A DNA stretch of 64,000 nt from the NCBI RefSeq assembly GCF_030732865.1, contig NZ_JASHKB010000001.1, forward strand, positions 186,001 through 250,000, written 5' to 3'. The translations under genes were made by a program, and so were the position numbers. The notes beneath the pieces are model-generated. The model was given only the letters and a program-made list of their open reading frames with translations, was not told where the DNA came from and did not search any database. Of the stretch, positions 55,287 to 60,736 are shown piece by piece. Origin of the DNA: Roseitalea sp. MMSF_3546 (GTDB lineage: Bacteria > Pseudomonadota > Alphaproteobacteria > Rhizobiales > Rhizobiaceae). How positions within the stretch are numbered: position 1 is the stretch's first letter; the number at the start of each line of letters is the position of its first letter.

Positions 55287-56936
55287 TCACGCCGCCTCGG
55301 CCGGGTTGGCTTCGGGAAAGACGTTCTCGCCGCCGGCCTCGATCCGCGCGGCGGCGGCGAGCAGTTTCTCGCGCACCTCGCACTCGAGCATCCAGGCCGC
55401 ATTCGGATCGGCGCACGGCACCATGAACATCACGTTCTGCCCGAAGATGTCGTGATCGGTGACGTGCACGCCGCGATTGTCGAGGTCGCCGAGCCGGTCG
55501 GCCATCTGCTCGAGAATGGCGTGATAGGATTTGCGCAGCGGATCGATGTCCGCGTCGTGGGCAAGACGCAGGTCGACGCGGCGGATGATGGTGGGATCGA
55601 CCATCGTCCAGTTCTCGAAGCTTTCCTCGACGAAGTCGGAAACCGGCACGACGATCCGCTTGCCCGTCCAGTCGCGCAACTGCACGAAGGTGAAGTGGAT
55701 GCGCTCGACCGTGCAGATATAGCCGTTCCAAAGCAGCTTGTCTCCGATCTTGGCCGACTGGTTCAGCGCGATCTGCATCGATGACAGGATATTGGCCAGG
55801 ATGCTGCGGGCGGCAAAGGCCAGGACCAGGGTGAGCACCCCGGCCGAGGCCACCAGCGACAGGCCCAGCGTCTGCGACAGATCGGCCCGGCGCAGCACGA
55901 TGACGGCGCCCGTCACAACCAGCCCCACGATCAGCAGCCGCCTTGCCGCGGCGACCTTGGTTGCAATGCCGCGCTTGCGCTCCTGGCCGGAACCGATCGT
56001 GCTGAGCTGACCCTGGTCGAAGTCGATCAGGCGGTTGAGGATCGTGTCGGCCGCGTTGATGATCAGCCACACCGTGGCAACGAAGTAGCCAATGGCGATC
56101 AGTGGCGCAAGGAAGGCGTCGATCCGCCCCGAAAATGCGAGCACCCAATGGGTCAGGACATGAACGACGCCCGTCATGACATAAAGGATGAGCGGGCCGC
56201 GCAGCGCGAGCGTGAATGACTTGCCGCCCTCGTCGCGGCGGATCCGATACATGCCGCGCGACATCAGCGCATAGGTGAGCACGCCAAGGCCGACCGACAG
56301 GGCGAGCACCAGTGGCAGGCCGATGACCTCCCAGACACGCAGGTCCCAGAAGACCTCTTCTTGCAGCAGTTCCGGCAACATCGCCTCAAAGCGCGAGGCA
56401 CCGTAGCGCGCAGCGAGCGCCGGCAGGTTCTCCACCGATTGCTCGGAAAAGACCCACACCGGATCCGCTCCGGCGGGCTTCAGCCGGTTGAGGCGGATGG
56501 AGACCGGCCGGTTTTCGAGTTCGACCATCCACACACGGATCGACCGTCGCGGCTCGCCCGCCAGCACCGCGTTCGACGGCGCGCGCGATTTCAGCCCGTC
56601 GGGCCGGTCGGGCAGGTCGTCCCAGTTGATGACCACCTGCCGCTCGATGACCGTGTGCAGTTTGCGGGCGAGTTCAGGGCCGGCCTGCGGCTGGCTAGCC
56701 GGCTCGAGGTTGGTCAGGTCGAGAAGATGGGCGGCCGCCTTCCACTCGCCGCCATGGGCGCGGTTGAGAAACGATTCCACCGCCGCCTGGGGCGTGTCGC
56801 GGTCGATCCCTTCGGGCACGGGGCCAAGGCCGGTGTTCAGGCTGTCGACTTCGAAATAGCGCAGCACACCATCCTGCGCCGCGGCGGCGACCGCGAGCAC
56901 GAAAAAGACCAGCACGGTGCCAAAAGGACGTTTCAT
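55287..56936 (-). CDS. Mechanosensitive ion channel family protein (MscS-like)
   Basis: The 549-residue protein has a cleavable signal peptide (about 1-20), a periplasmic domain of about 170 residues, five membrane helices, then an MscS core: pore helix region SLVASAGVLTLVLAFAARSI followed by LSSMQIALNQSAKIGD and a cytoplasmic beta domain (IHFTFVQLRDWTGKRI). Likely an osmotic release valve. ATG 56936; earlier residues in the frame are non-coding. Confidence 0.9.
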   Translation of the reverse strand: MKRPFGTVLVFFVLAVAAAAQDGVLRYFEVDSLNTGLGPVPEGIDRDTPQAAVESFLNRAHGGEWKAAAHLLDLTNLEPASQPQAGPELARKLHTVIERQVVINWDDLPDRPDGLKSRAPSNAVLAGEPRRSIRVWMVELENRPVSIRLNRLKPAGADPVWVFSEQSVENLPALAARYGASRFEAMLPELLQEEVFWDLRVWEVIGLPLVLALSVGLGVLTYALMSRGMYRIRRDEGGKSFTLALRGPLILYVMTGVVHVLTHWVLAFSGRIDAFLAPLIAIGYFVATVWLIINAADTILNRLIDFDQGQLSTIGSGQERKRGIATKVAAARRLLIVGLVVTGAVIVLRRADLSQTLGLSLVASAGVLTLVLAFAARSILANILSSMQIALNQSAKIGDKLLWNGYICTVERIHFTFVQLRDWTGKRIVVPVSDFVEESFENWTMVDPTIIRRVDLRLAHDADIDPLRKSYHAILEQMADRLGDLDNRGVHVTDHDIFGQNVMFMVPCADPNAAWMLECEVREKLLAAAARIEAGGENVFPEANPAEAA

Positions 56937-57444
56937 GGTGCGCGCGAGAGTTTGAAGGCTGCAACTCAACGGCGCGGCTGGGCTCGAGGTTCCCCAGGCG
57001 AAGCGACCGGTGGCCGATCGGCCCCGATCCGGACCCGCGTCGTTGACGGCCCGCCGGTCGCCGCCGCGCGCCTTGCCGGCCGCACCCTCCACGGAACCGC
57101 AGGCGCCATCGACGCTTGTTTGGGCAAACGCCGAAACACCCGATCCGACAGGATGCGCCATGACCATGCCCGATCGCCCGCCACGGCATCCGCACTCAAT
57201 GACCGGTCGCCGCCACGCCCCGGAGCGGGCCGGGGCGCGCCGCCGGCTGACAGGCACGGTTCGCCCTGGGGGCGCCCTTTACGGCGTGTGCGGCCAGCCG
57301 CGCCCGGCCGAGGGCGCGGGCACGGGCGCCGACGGCTCCAGCGGCTGAGCCGGCAATGGCGCAGGGACCGTCGCTGCGAACGTTAAGGCAACCGATCGGC
57401 CTTCAGCGACGTTACCGCTTTCGTTGAGCTGATCGGATTTTGCG
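56937..57444. other. 508-bp region without a convincing gene
   Basis: Lies between the divergent MscS and glycosyltransferase genes. Open frames are arginine- or proline-rich and lack ribosome sites, so I call none. It should hold the promoters of both flanking units; the stretch near 57375-57440 is lower in GC and is the best place for the plus-strand one, but no consensus promoter is clear. Confidence 0.5.
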
Positions 57445-58386
57445 ATGCACACCGACCCCGCCCGATGGATCGTCGTGATCCCGGCCAAAGACGAGCAATT
57501 GCGCATTCCCCGCGCCTTGCAGGCTCTCGACCGGGCCGCGCGAGGGGTGTCGGAGGAGGTGAACGTGCTTGTCTACGCCAACAACTGCACGGACGGGACC
57601 GCCATGGCCGCCGGGCACACGGCCCGCAGCGCCCACCTGAACACGGTCGTCGAGGAGCGACGGCTGCCCGATGCCCTGGCGCATGCCGGCGGGGCGCGCC
57701 GCGCGGCGGTCGAGGCGGCGCGGCGCGTGTTCGGCGCCCGTGATCGCGACCGCCTGTTTTCCACCGACGCCGATGCGATCGTTCCCGAAGACGGGCTTCG
57801 GACGGCCGGCGCGGCATTTGCCGCAGGCGCCGATGTCGTGTTGGCCCGCATCGCCTGCCTTGCCGATCCGGCCGAGCCTGCGCCGCAGACCGCGCTGCGC
57901 CGGCGCGCGCGGATCGTCTTGTGGCGCCGCCATGTGCGCGAGGTCGTCGAGTGGCTGCGCACGGGGCAGCCGGCCTCCGAACTGCTGCATGGCGATCACG
58001 GCGCGGCCGGCATCGCCGCGACCTTTTCGGCCTACGACGAGGCTGGAGGATTTCCGCCCGTGCCCAGCGAGGAAGACCGCAGCTTCGTCGGCTCGGCGGA
58101 CGCACTGGGCCTGCGTGTCGACCGCAGCAGCGGCTTTGCGGTGCGCGCCTCCACAAGGGTGACGGGGCGTGCCCTGGGCGGCATGGCCGACCTGCTGCAC
58201 CGCGATGCCGCGTCCGCCGACCCCGGTCTCGTCGAACGCCATGACCTGACGCTTGAACGGCTTTGCGCCGGTCCCTGCCATGCCCGCGCCTTCGTGCAGT
58301 GGCCGGCGGCGCTGGAGCCGGCCGATCGCGCCATCGCCGGCCTGGAGGCATTCCTTGCACAGATGCGGGCCGGGAGGGCAGCGTGA
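57445..58386 (+). CDS. Family 2 glycosyltransferase
   Basis: The 313-residue GT-A enzyme has WIVVIPAKDEQLRIPRALQAL (cut here as VVIPAKDE), nucleotide-sugar region VLVYANNCTDGT and a DxD-type metal site STDADAIVP, then SEEDRSF as the acceptor-base region. No membrane helix. First gene of a four-gene coupled unit; its stop overlaps the next start (GTGA). Donor and acceptor unknown; a sugar transferred to a lipid or polyketide-like acceptor is plausible given neighbours. Confidence 0.87.
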   Translation: MHTDPARWIVVIPAKDEQLRIPRALQALDRAARGVSEEVNVLVYANNCTDGTAMAAGHTARSAHLNTVVEERRLPDALAHAGGARRAAVEAARRVFGARDRDRLFSTDADAIVPEDGLRTAGAAFAAGADVVLARIACLADPAEPAPQTALRRRARIVLWRRHVREVVEWLRTGQPASELLHGDHGAAGIAATFSAYDEAGGFPPVPSEEDRSFVGSADALGLRVDRSSGFAVRASTRVTGRALGGMADLLHRDAASADPGLVERHDLTLERLCAGPCHARAFVQWPAALEPADRAIAGLEAFLAQMRAGRAA

Positions 58387-59453
58387 ACCATGCCGAGCTG
58401 ACCGACGCGTTGCGCGCCTGCGCCAGCGACGCCTTTCCCGCCCAAGGGCTGGACCTGCTTCGCCACGAGGGGCTGACCGATCCGGCGCGTATCGCCACGC
58501 TCGTCGCCCCACGCGAGGGCGCGCCGCCGCAGATGTGTGACCTCCTGATCGCGCTCGGCCGGGCCGACCTGGCGCTGGGCCGGATCTATGAAGGCCATGT
58601 CAACGCGATCGGATTGATTGCGCGGCTGGCCAGCGCCGCACAGCGCGAGCGACTGCTGGACATGGCCCGACTTGGCGGCCTGTTCGGCGTCTGGGGCGCC
58701 GACGACCGTGCCAGCCCGGCTTGTCTGCGCAAGGGTCGGCTGCACGGCCGCAAGGTCTATGCCTCGGGTGCCTCCCACCTCGCCTTGGCCCTGATACCGG
58801 TCCGCGACGATGCCGACCGCATGGTGCTTGTCCTTGCCGATCGCAAGACGCTGGAAGGCCGGTTCGACACAAGCTGGTGGAAACCGCTCGGCATGGAGCG
58901 CACCGACAGCCACGCCGTCGACCTTGAAGGCACCGTCGTGGACGAGGCTGACGTTCTGGGCGCGCCGGGCCGGTATCTCGACCAGCCGTTTTTCGGCGGA
59001 GGCGCAATTCGCTTCGTTGCGGTGCAACTGGGCGGGCTTCTGGCTGTCTGGGATGCCACCAGGGCGCACCTGGCGGACACACGCAGGCACGCCGACCCCC
59101 ACCAGGCGGCGCGGCTGGGCGAAATGCTCGCCGATGCCGAGGCGGCCTATGCGGCCGTCAGGGCCGCCTACCGCCGCATCGCCCCTGCCATTGCCTGGCA
59201 GGACGCTGCCGCCTCGCCCGAGGCGGCGCTGATTGCCGATGCCGCGCGCACGCACCTGGTGCAGGCTGGCGCCCGCGTCCTCGATCTTGCGCAGCGTTCG
59301 GTGGGCTGTCCGGGTCTGATGGCCGGTCATCGGCTTGAAAGGGTCTTGCGCGACCTGTCGGTCTATCTGCGTCAGCCCGCCCCCGACGCAGCGCTTTGCC
59401 GGGCGGGCACGGCGGCCGCGGAGGGGCGCTATGTGCCGCTCTTCGATGCATGA
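58383..59453 (+). CDS. Acyl-CoA dehydrogenase-like flavoprotein, catalytic Glu not seen
   Basis: The 356-residue protein aligns with the acyl-CoA dehydrogenase fold (helical N- and C-domains, mid beta domain KVYASGASHLALALIPV) and the C-terminal block LAQRSVGCPGLMAGHRLERV ending in LRDL. Where acyl-CoA dehydrogenases have Glu eight residues before the Arg-Asp pair, this has Gly. It is also shorter than usual. It may use another base, or act as an oxidase, monooxygenase or non-catalytic partner. Start GTG 58383. Confidence 0.8.
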   Translation: MNHAELTDALRACASDAFPAQGLDLLRHEGLTDPARIATLVAPREGAPPQMCDLLIALGRADLALGRIYEGHVNAIGLIARLASAAQRERLLDMARLGGLFGVWGADDRASPACLRKGRLHGRKVYASGASHLALALIPVRDDADRMVLVLADRKTLEGRFDTSWWKPLGMERTDSHAVDLEGTVVDEADVLGAPGRYLDQPFFGGGAIRFVAVQLGGLLAVWDATRAHLADTRRHADPHQAARLGEMLADAEAAYAAVRAAYRRIAPAIAWQDAAASPEAALIADAARTHLVQAGARVLDLAQRSVGCPGLMAGHRLERVLRDLSVYLRQPAPDAALCRAGTAAAEGRYVPLFDA

Positions 59454-60165
59454 GCCGATCGTCGACTGGCCCCGCCTTGCGCGCCTGAGCGGCGCCGGTC
59501 GCGGCATCTTCGTGCTGGCCCCGCATCCCGACGATGAATGCATCGGCACGGGCGCGCTGATCGCCCATGCGCGCATGCGCGGGGTGAGGGTCGAGGTCGC
59601 TCTGCTGACCGACGGCGCCGCCTCGCACCCCAGAAGCCGGCAGCACGGGCCCGCGCGCCTGGCGGCCATCCGGTTGGCCGAGATGCGCGCGGCGCTGCGT
59701 TGCCTGGGGCAGATCCGGCCGCTTTTGACCCTCGATCTTCCCGACAGCGCATCCGGCACGGTTGCCGACGCGCAATGGCAAGGGACCCGTCGCCGCCTGC
59801 GCGCCGCCATAGTGCAAAGCGGCGCCGGGCTCGTCGTCACCACCTGGCGCCGCGAGCCGCACCGTGATCACCGCAGCGCATACCGGCTGTTGCGTCAGGC
59901 CATGTACGGCCTGCCGGCAACCCTTGCCGAATGCCTTGTCTGGACGCCCATCACGGGCACGCGCCGGGACCGGCCGAGCGCGCGCGAGGGCCGTCTGGTG
60001 CACCTGACCGTGGGCGCCGCGCGCCCGCGCAAGGTCGCCGCCCTGAGAGCCCATCGCAGCCAGTTCGGCGCTGTCGTCGGCGACGATCCCGATGGCTTTT
60101 GCATCGATCCGGCCACCTTCAGGGCCATGACGGGGCCACACGAAAGCTATGTTCTGGAACGCTAG
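59446..60165 (+). CDS. PIG-L family N-deacetylase (LmbE-like)
   Basis: The 239-residue zinc hydrolase shows the motif LAPHPDDECIGTGALI (zinc ligands His, Asp, Asp) and a second ligand region WRREPHRDHRSAY. PIG-L enzymes remove N-acetyl groups from GlcNAc conjugates such as GlcNAc-PI or mycothiol/bacillithiol precursors. With a glycosyltransferase two genes upstream, a likely step is deacetylation of a GlcNAc-containing product. ATG 59446 overlaps the previous gene by 8 bp. Confidence 0.9.
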   Translation: MHEPIVDWPRLARLSGAGRGIFVLAPHPDDECIGTGALIAHARMRGVRVEVALLTDGAASHPRSRQHGPARLAAIRLAEMRAALRCLGQIRPLLTLDLPDSASGTVADAQWQGTRRRLRAAIVQSGAGLVVTTWRREPHRDHRSAYRLLRQAMYGLPATLAECLVWTPITGTRRDRPSAREGRLVHLTVGAARPRKVAALRAHRSQFGAVVGDDPDGFCIDPATFRAMTGPHESYVLER

Positions 60166-60736
60166 CACGGCGCCGGGGCAGGCGGCGCACTTCGAGGCGC
60201 TCTATGCGGGTTCCGACGACCCCTGGTCGTATGAGCGCGATCGCGTCGAGCGCTGCAAGCGCGCCGTGATCGGCCGCATGCTCGGCGCGGGGCGGCTTGG
60301 CCGGGGTCTCGAACTCGGCTGCGGGCCGGGCGTTTCGACGCGCGAACTGGCGCCGCGTTTCCTGCGGCTCGAGGCCGTCGATGTCGCAAGGGGCGCGGTC
60401 GCCCATGCGCGAAGCCGGACCGCGCATCTGCCGCATGTCACGATCCGCCAGGCCGCCTTGCCGCTTCGCCTGGCCTGCGCGCGATATGACGCCGCGATCG
60501 CCAGCGAGGTGCTCTACTATCTGGCCGGCAGGGAACGTCGGGCGACCATGGCTTCAACCTTTGCGGCCCTGCGCCCGGGCGGGCGGCTGGTCGTCGTCAA
60601 CACCGTCTGGCGCTATGACGACATGACCTGCACGAGTGCCCGGATCGGCACCGAACTGCGCGCGCTGTTCGGTGCGCCGCGCAGCGCTGTCCGCACCCGG
60701 CACTGGGTCGCCGAGGCCTTTGTGAAGCCGCGTTGA
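60149..60736 (+). CDS. SAM-dependent methyltransferase, NodS-like
   Basis: The 195-residue methyltransferase has HFEALYAGSDDPWSYERDRV, the NodS family signature, then SAM motif I LELGCGPGVST and motif II DAAIASEVLYYL. NodS N-methylates the deacetylated glucosamine of Nod factor precursors. Following a PIG-L deacetylase by 17-bp overlap, it may N-methylate a freed amino group. Last gene of the cassette. Confidence 0.88.
   Translation: MFWNASTAPGQAAHFEALYAGSDDPWSYERDRVERCKRAVIGRMLGAGRLGRGLELGCGPGVSTRELAPRFLRLEAVDVARGAVAHARSRTAHLPHVTIRQAALPLRLACARYDAAIASEVLYYLAGRERRATMASTFAALRPGGRLVVVNTVWRYDDMTCTSARIGTELRALFGAPRSAVRTRHWVAEAFVKPR

Follow-up and report, generated by a model that had tools for sequence, protein, structure and literature searches.

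Positions 57445-60736 of a 64,000-nucleotide stretch of Roseitalea sp. MMSF_3546 (contig NZ_JASHKB010000001.1, positions 186,001 to 250,000; hereafter the window) hold four genes, A to D, that encode a GT2-type glycosyltransferase, a flavoprotein, a PIG-L-type deacetylase and a NodS-related methyltransferase. Comparative analysis confirmed A-D as one conserved unit, and the cassette is present in at least six phyla. We hold the chances to be evenly balanced that it is a horizontally mobile, self-contained cassette for a small soluble amino-sugar glycoside, likely used in osmotic, desiccation or oxidative stress tolerance. We place this orphan, apparently mobile and conserved amino-sugar pathway with systems of the "glycosyltransferase plus PIG-L deacetylase" kind. 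No characterised product or pathway for the four-gene set was found in the open-licence PMC literature, and neither there nor in the Pfam and NCBIfam comparisons did a close match to a characterised pathway appear, in keeping with the first-pass annotation of this DNA, which knew of no described product for the combination.

In a sample of 199 genomes of the host's family, B had a match at E ≤ 1e-3 in 98, and a separate group of 31 of the 199, the window's genome included, had B matches below E 1e-27. Loci from 19 of the 30 other genomes with a close B (L003-L021) carried A, B, C and D in every case, and B was found in one of five genomes of the window's genus. A scan of named genomes through B, limited to the best 80 of at least 557, returned Aureimonas, Aurantimonas, Methylobacterium, Sphingomonas, Hymenobacter and other Bacteroidota, as well as cyanobacteria, a Puniceicoccaceae metagenome-assembled genome (MAG) and Parvularcula; plasmid records added loci from Deinococcus, Bradyrhizobium, Sulfitobacter and Nostoc. 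When open reading frames (ORFs) were clustered across 86 loci (L022-L107, all found through B and bearing 41 genus-or-higher labels taken from record titles), four families occurred under 39-41 of the 41 labels (A in 64 loci, B in 86, C in 58 and D in 79); A, C and D were each present under 39-40 labels, and the next real neighbour family under nine. Co-occurrence thus reaches far beyond the Hyphomicrobiales, across genera and phyla, and the first-pass expectation that the genes form one set held up where their failure to co-occur would have undone it. No constant fifth family was seen over nine of the 41 labels, in a clustering that leaves clusters of fewer than four labels unlisted and several of 4-6 labels unidentified; the other wide clusters were rejected as a constant fifth gene, being opposite-strand ORFs that overlap the cassette (antisense, by the coordinates of their representatives). 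With no fifth family above nine labels, the cassette has no acyltransferase, carrier or exporter as a steady companion.

All four genes lay inside the examined stretch in 48 of the 80 named loci. Methylobacterium or Methylorubrum supplied 26 of the 32 incomplete loci, 25 of these without C in the stretch; a C orthologue (E < 1e-60) was nevertheless present in all 18 Methylobacterium-type genomes tested, 15 from those 25 loci and three with C linked to B, and at seven of nine unlinked C sites examined D or A lay in the stretch. Three loci (L042, L030 and L026) had an incomplete set within the examined stretch. A was found in 12 of 12 genomes or records from cyanobacteria, Bacteroidota, Deinococcus, Puniceicoccaceae and Parvularcula. 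On a Kitasatospora plasmid the annotation covers B-C-D, and the gap that it leaves after D is spanned by a frame that matches the A profile (E 2.6e-42). Among 146 sampled cyanobacterial genomes, B reached E ≤ 1e-50 in six (centre included).

Among 398 Pseudomonadota genomes, B was detected at E ≤ 1e-50 in 12, the window's own included, and all 12 have A (worst E 1.7e-60) and C (worst E 4.2e-37), while A reached E ≤ 1e-50 in one of the 386 B-negative genomes; in genome G516 A is present, and the 13 kb examined there show none of the other three genes. The figure of 12 in 398 is a lower bound because the B threshold, applied with at most four candidates scored per genome, missed a second clade. 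C at E ≤ 1e-36 was present in 21 B-negative Pseudomonadota genomes, and B, C and D occurred together in 17 of the 20 inspected (G644 was left out); C alone was seen in G507 and G463, and G588 has a GT2-PIG-L fusion. Second-clade stretches (n = 20) held B, C and D in 18 cases and A as well in 16, and the gene order in these 16 was B-C-D-A in 14 and A first in two. Counting the weaker genome G576, B and C occur together with A or D in at least 30 of the 398 genomes.

The four families have diverged together: across the window and 71 complete loci, their identity-distance matrices correlate at r = 0.88-0.94 where permutation gave at most 0.24, a contrast tempered by a null that ignores species relatedness. 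Among these complete loci the nearest relative of all four window proteins is Parvularcula dongshanensis (52, 59, 57 and 49% identity for A to D), and A, C and D of the window and of Parvularcula have changes in common at near-invariant sites, so that the two form one divergent branch. This branch, together with the patchy distribution of the cassette, suggests transfer of the cassette as a block.

Gene A had no Pfam match at E ≤ 0.01, hence no Pfam GT2 match for the window copy, and its NCBIfam matches to glycosyltransferases were weak and far under cut-off. Its predicted structure (predicted local distance difference test, pLDDT, 90.2) has a GT-A fold, best matched by the fucosyltransferase WrtF (Z 21.2, root-mean-square deviation [rmsd] 2.2 over 182 residues), and a DxD motif (D108, D110) and the pair E210-D211 are kept in 72 of 72 sequences, so that A combines the fold, the DxD and the catalytic acidic motif that we use to recognise a GT2 enzyme. 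The window copy is divergent and short, at 313 amino acids (aa) versus 339-420 aa in most first-clade relatives, and none of the four window proteins, A included, has a clear membrane segment.

Of the domain labels in the first-pass annotation, GT2 (as a GT-A fold), PIG-L and NodS-like stood, whereas "acyl-CoA dehydrogenase-like" is true only of the fold of B, which is predicted with high confidence (pLDDT 93.2). B scores 19.4 bits against PF00441, under the 22.4 cut-off expected of a canonical acyl-CoA dehydrogenase, and in 44 of 44 sequences (offset read from a shared R-D motif) the catalytic glutamate is missing: its position in the IYEG motif and its second usual place, which we take to be that of isovaleryl-CoA dehydrogenase, are both non-acidic throughout. 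The five acyl-CoA dehydrogenases of the same genome that exceed the PF00441 cut-off all keep the (Y/W)EG motif. In a ranking of solved structures by sequence, the class D flavin monooxygenases DszC, TdsC and MsuC came ahead of the best plain dehydrogenase (DszC at E 7.4e-23, 4u83 at E 6.5e-17), and 11 of the top 12 Foldseek rows were monooxygenases by title or molecule name, mostly DszC or TdsC, with row 1 being 5gj7, titled putative acyl-CoA dehydrogenase. DszC and TdsC are thus among the closest relatives of B by sequence and by fold, at about 20% identity in the case of DszC. From this similarity B is predicted to be akin to the class D flavin monooxygenases rather than a canonical acyl-CoA dehydrogenase, and the gene labelled "acyl-CoA dehydrogenase" probably encodes an oxygenase instead.

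C matched PIG-L (PF02585) at 79.8 bits against a cut-off of 28.2 and has intact PHPDDE and HxDH motifs, the (A)HPDDE and HxDH zinc motifs of the PIG-L/LmbE superfamily; H27, D29, D30, H139, D141 and H142 are kept in 72 of 72 sequences and presumably have the zinc roles of their counterparts in MshB. Its best solved relative is diacetylchitobiose deacetylase, and it scores far below the NCBIfam equivalog cut-offs for BshB1 (45.9 versus 182.5 bits) and MshB (28.5 versus 224.35 bits). D matched the Pfam family NodS (PF05401) at 53.6 bits (cut-off 24), and reached 62.6 bits against the NodS equivalog NF041650, far under its cut-off of 300. The best solved relative of D is 4isc_A, titled "Methyltransferase" (E 8.9e-56) and, judging from this match, probably a D orthologue; NodS itself comes second (E 2.2e-31). 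In Leeuwenhoekiella C and D are fused in one protein, consistent with consecutive steps, and the first-pass idea of deacetylation followed by N-methylation fits because D is NodS-related and is fused to C there. A role in anti-phage defence was considered and rejected, as the single match in a PADLOC scan of the four proteins (mad2 to D, 43.9 bits, residues 39-152) goes no further than the shared methyltransferase domain.

We infer the sugar, acceptor, step order, product and physiology of the pathway as follows. A would place an N-acetylhexosamine, probably GlcNAc with UDP-GlcNAc as its donor, on an acceptor in the cytosol; C would take the acetyl group off the resulting glycoside; D would methylate the freed amine with S-adenosylmethionine (SAM); and B, as a flavin-dependent oxygenase supplied with reduced flavin by a general reductase, would oxidise the product. 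N-oxidation of the amine would be the most attractive chemically, but C- or S-oxidation is possible. The product would most likely serve osmotic, desiccation or oxidative stress tolerance. A more specific version, tentative and in our view sooner to fail than to hold, is that an N-methylated, flavin-oxidised amino-sugar glycoside is an undescribed stress metabolite that works together with trehalose as a redox cofactor, an osmolyte or a protectant against drying. Its makers, from at least six phyla, would be bacteria of plant surfaces, soils, waters and the clinic, with Methylobacterium, Deinococcus, cyanobacteria, Hymenobacter and Acinetobacter among them. If the pathway does make a stress metabolite, this would be a further class of compound beside trehalose, glycine betaine and the low-molecular-weight thiols, and would account for an operon apparently unexplained in Acinetobacter baumannii expression data. 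A compact orphan pathway so tightly conserved across six phyla is worth solving, and the "nodulation" label of its methyltransferase is brought into question, as D has no constant link to nodulation.

The stress setting is suggested by neighbouring genes. Catalase lies near the cassette in loci of five genera, a gene for LigD or for its 3'-phosphoesterase domain under four labels, and a Gfo/Idh/MocA oxidoreductase under five. A GlgX, LigD, Ku or GT20 (OtsA-type) neighbour was present at nine of 20 second-clade loci (eight of the 18 with B, C and D), compared with any marker, a catalase, in one of 20 arbitrary 20-kb windows from six second-clade genomes. At the 80 first-set loci a marker was present in 21 cases, usually the LigD-domain gene of Methylobacterium. 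The second-clade comparison is weakened by the choice of markers after the neighbours had been viewed, by three queries drawn from tested loci, by several second-clade loci coming from one genus, by control windows from second-clade genomes only and by one of the nine positive loci (L172) holding C alone. Acinetobacter ursingii has catalase, OtsA/OtsB and DUF2171 genes beside the set, and the Deinococcus radiodurans locus has a glycine-betaine-type substrate-binding gene. GlgX and trehalose have a role in stress in Pseudomonas aeruginosa (PMC8084333).

A stretch from A. baumannii (L176) carries all four families and belongs to the second clade. The uncharacterised genes ACICU_02432-02435, near blsA, are of the same four kinds by annotation, followed by a DUF2171 gene, and Table 2 of PMC5660220 lists them as one operon, "e". 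In that table the operon is 31- to 62-fold down, together with otsA/otsB, in two colistin-dependent mutants, and the gene key of Figure 3 in PMC9020721, on the context of BLUF photoreceptor genes, shows the same four gene kinds. These data support co-expression of the four genes and hint at a stress setting. The likeness of the ACICU operon is one of annotation, sequence having been compared for stretch L176 only, and it differs from the window copy, a member of the other clade, in its order (B-C-D-A), its short 214-aa glycosyltransferase and the DUF2171 gene upstream. In the main text of an A. baumannii desiccation study (PMC6181384) the six terms sought were absent.

Several further observations weigh against a stress-related, oxidised amino-sugar glycoside. 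The expression table of PMC5660220 does not come from a stress experiment, and in another study (PMC6330354) the adjacent DUF2171 gene near blsA is upregulated in strains resistant to colistin. A strict EcfG motif is absent upstream of the window's gene A, and across 71 cassette upstream regions it is enriched but rare (three, versus about 0.15-0.27 expected). The window copy departs from near-invariant sites in A (Trp117 to Gly), C (Asp137 to Glu, Tyr163 to Cys) and D (His151 to Asn), and may therefore act on a different substrate. The amino-sugar N-oxygenases KijD3 and DnmZ stand lower in the rankings of B, mixed among dehydrogenases; the true dehydrogenase 4u83 outranks KijD3, nitrososynthase and DnmZ by sequence, and ColB1 and 2dvl outrank KijD3 by Foldseek, and N-oxidation therefore has no specific sequence support. 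The positions of DszC His92, which we take to be a catalytic residue, and His391 are occupied in B by Arg67 (72 of 72 sequences) and Arg330 (71 of 72, the remaining one having Lys), and Asp335, which is invariant, is close to the lost glutamate, so that another base is possible in B. A role of His391 in DszC has been described (PMC11134501).

Asp335 also bears on whether B might after all be a real dehydrogenase or desaturase working on a carrier- or sugar-linked substrate, which we regard as somewhat unlikely but worth keeping in view. A second fold comparison ended in a tie (butyryl-CoA dehydrogenase Z 36.0, rmsd 2.6 over 334 residues; DszC Z 35.6, rmsd 2.8 over 343 residues), these VIA-align scores not separating dehydrogenases from oxygenases for B, and ColB1, a flavoprotein that dehydrogenates a tethered cysteine, appears in Foldseek row 13; the loss of the glutamate from both places and the lead of DszC and TdsC in the sequence ranking and in most top Foldseek rows speak for an oxygenase. 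Tailoring of an envelope glycan, in which an N-methyl amino sugar is put on lipopolysaccharide, capsule or exopolysaccharide, is in our view unlikely. Glycan synthesis is a frequent role of GT2 enzymes, GT4 genes occur close to the cassette under four labels (Bradyrhizobium, a Caulobacteraceae MAG, Leeuwenhoekiella and Methylobacterium), and one of the colistin-dependent lineages in which the A. baumannii operon drops has lpxC disrupted (PMC5660220), but no envelope-export family is a constant partner, the window proteins have no clear membrane segment, and the unit moves among phyla with different envelopes.

Similar in logic are bacillithiol and mycothiol, in whose pathways a free amino-sugar glycoside is made in the cytosol by a glycosyltransferase and a PIG-L deacetylase (BshA/BshB, MshA/MshB), and C has weak matches to both deacetylase families. 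A redox cofactor of this type, with an amine bearing a redox-active oxidised group in place of cysteine, would also suit the catalase neighbours; we think it improbable, given that C is far from the BshB and MshB equivalogs, that the glycosyltransferase is GT2 and not GT4, and that an N-methyltransferase and a flavoprotein stand where a cysteine ligase would, no such fifth gene being constant. The first-pass comparison with Nod-factor-type or glycolipid tailoring, in which the cassette would finish a lipid-linked or lipo-oligosaccharide signal, fared worst and is in our judgement very unlikely. In the Nod pathway NodB deacetylates an amino sugar that NodS then N-methylates, just as a deacetylase gene precedes the NodS-related D here, and many hosts belong, as we take the named genera to do, to the Hyphomicrobiales. 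However, the NodB-type deacetylase fold is non-homologous to PIG-L, D falls far short of the NodS equivalog, the glycosyltransferase has no clear membrane segment, B is closest to flavin monooxygenases, no lipid or export partner is constant (with the minor neighbour clusters partly identified), and the set has a wide non-rhizobial range that takes in cyanobacteria, Deinococcus, Bacteroidota, Acinetobacter and the Kitasatospora plasmid. A NodA search gave no match in the host genome, nor in any of 14 control genomes. A cassette for a soluble, stress-related amino-sugar glycoside remains the reading we prefer.

In the 4.05-Mb host genome the four genes run on the plus strand without internal stops, as read from the ORF list and the sequence (Table 1), and the overlaps described in the first-pass annotation were recovered exactly, at 4 bp (GTGA), 8 bp and 17 bp; the GTGA overlap may indicate translational coupling of A and B. 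They are flanked by a divergent mechanosensitive channel gene on the left and a convergent DUF2383 gene on the right, so A-D stand alone.

Table 1. Genes of the cassette and their overlaps, in window coordinates.
Feature	Position	Strand	Description
Gene A	57445-58386	+	313 aa, ATG start; GT2-type (GT-A fold) glycosyltransferase
Gene B	58383-59453	+	356 aa, GTG start; acyl-CoA-dehydrogenase-fold flavoprotein
Gene C	59446-60165	+	239 aa; PIG-L/LmbE-type Zn deacetylase
Gene D	60149-60736	+	195 aa; NodS-related class I SAM methyltransferase
A stop/B start overlap	58383-58386	+	GTGA, 4 bp
B/C overlap	59446-59453	+	8 bp
C/D overlap	60149-60165	+	17 bp

A scan for sigma-70 promoters and terminators gave matches at chance level. 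The window, a locus of the same family (L009) and a Chelativorans locus (L064) have an upstream motif and its distance in common, which points to an alphaproteobacterial host close to Rhizobiaceae, and the relaxed EcfG-like motif occurs in seven of the 71 cassette upstream regions, against 0.7-0.9 expected. An EcfG-like motif, GGAAC-N17-CGTT, lies on the minus strand at 56968-56993, about 32 nucleotides before the likely start codon (ATG at 56936) of the mechanosensitive channel gene, which runs on that strand, and its sequence suggests general-stress control of that neighbour.

A number of loci depart from the common layout. Nine Methylobacterium loci have, inserted between A and B, a stretch of about 160 aa resembling the LigD 3'-phosphoesterase, a domain of the DNA-repair type (L040, L043, L044, L049 and L051, and likewise L052, L053, L055 and L067). 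The B orthologue of Deinococcus radiodurans (L022:7543-8820) is extended at its N-terminus by 426 aa that match nothing in Pfam or NCBIfam; a glycosyltransferase-flavoprotein fusion in this 779-aa ORF was rejected, as the N-terminal part has no Pfam match and an A homologue lies elsewhere on the same replicon. In non-alpha Pseudomonadota a second PIG-L gene follows the set in L123/L155, L156, L164 and L165, and in L123 a gene for a GlgX-type debranching enzyme abuts or overlaps the start of B. A GT2-PIG-L fusion protein of 620 aa at L134:5291-7150, where the 13 kb examined show neither B nor D, possibly represents a related two-step pathway. In the Caulobacteraceae MAG (L048:562-6876) the order GT4-A-B-C-D is followed by the gene for a 653-aa protein with a nitronate-monooxygenase/FabK-like domain, in a probable operon; this partner, a hint of nitro-sugar chemistry, was set aside because it is confined to that one locus.

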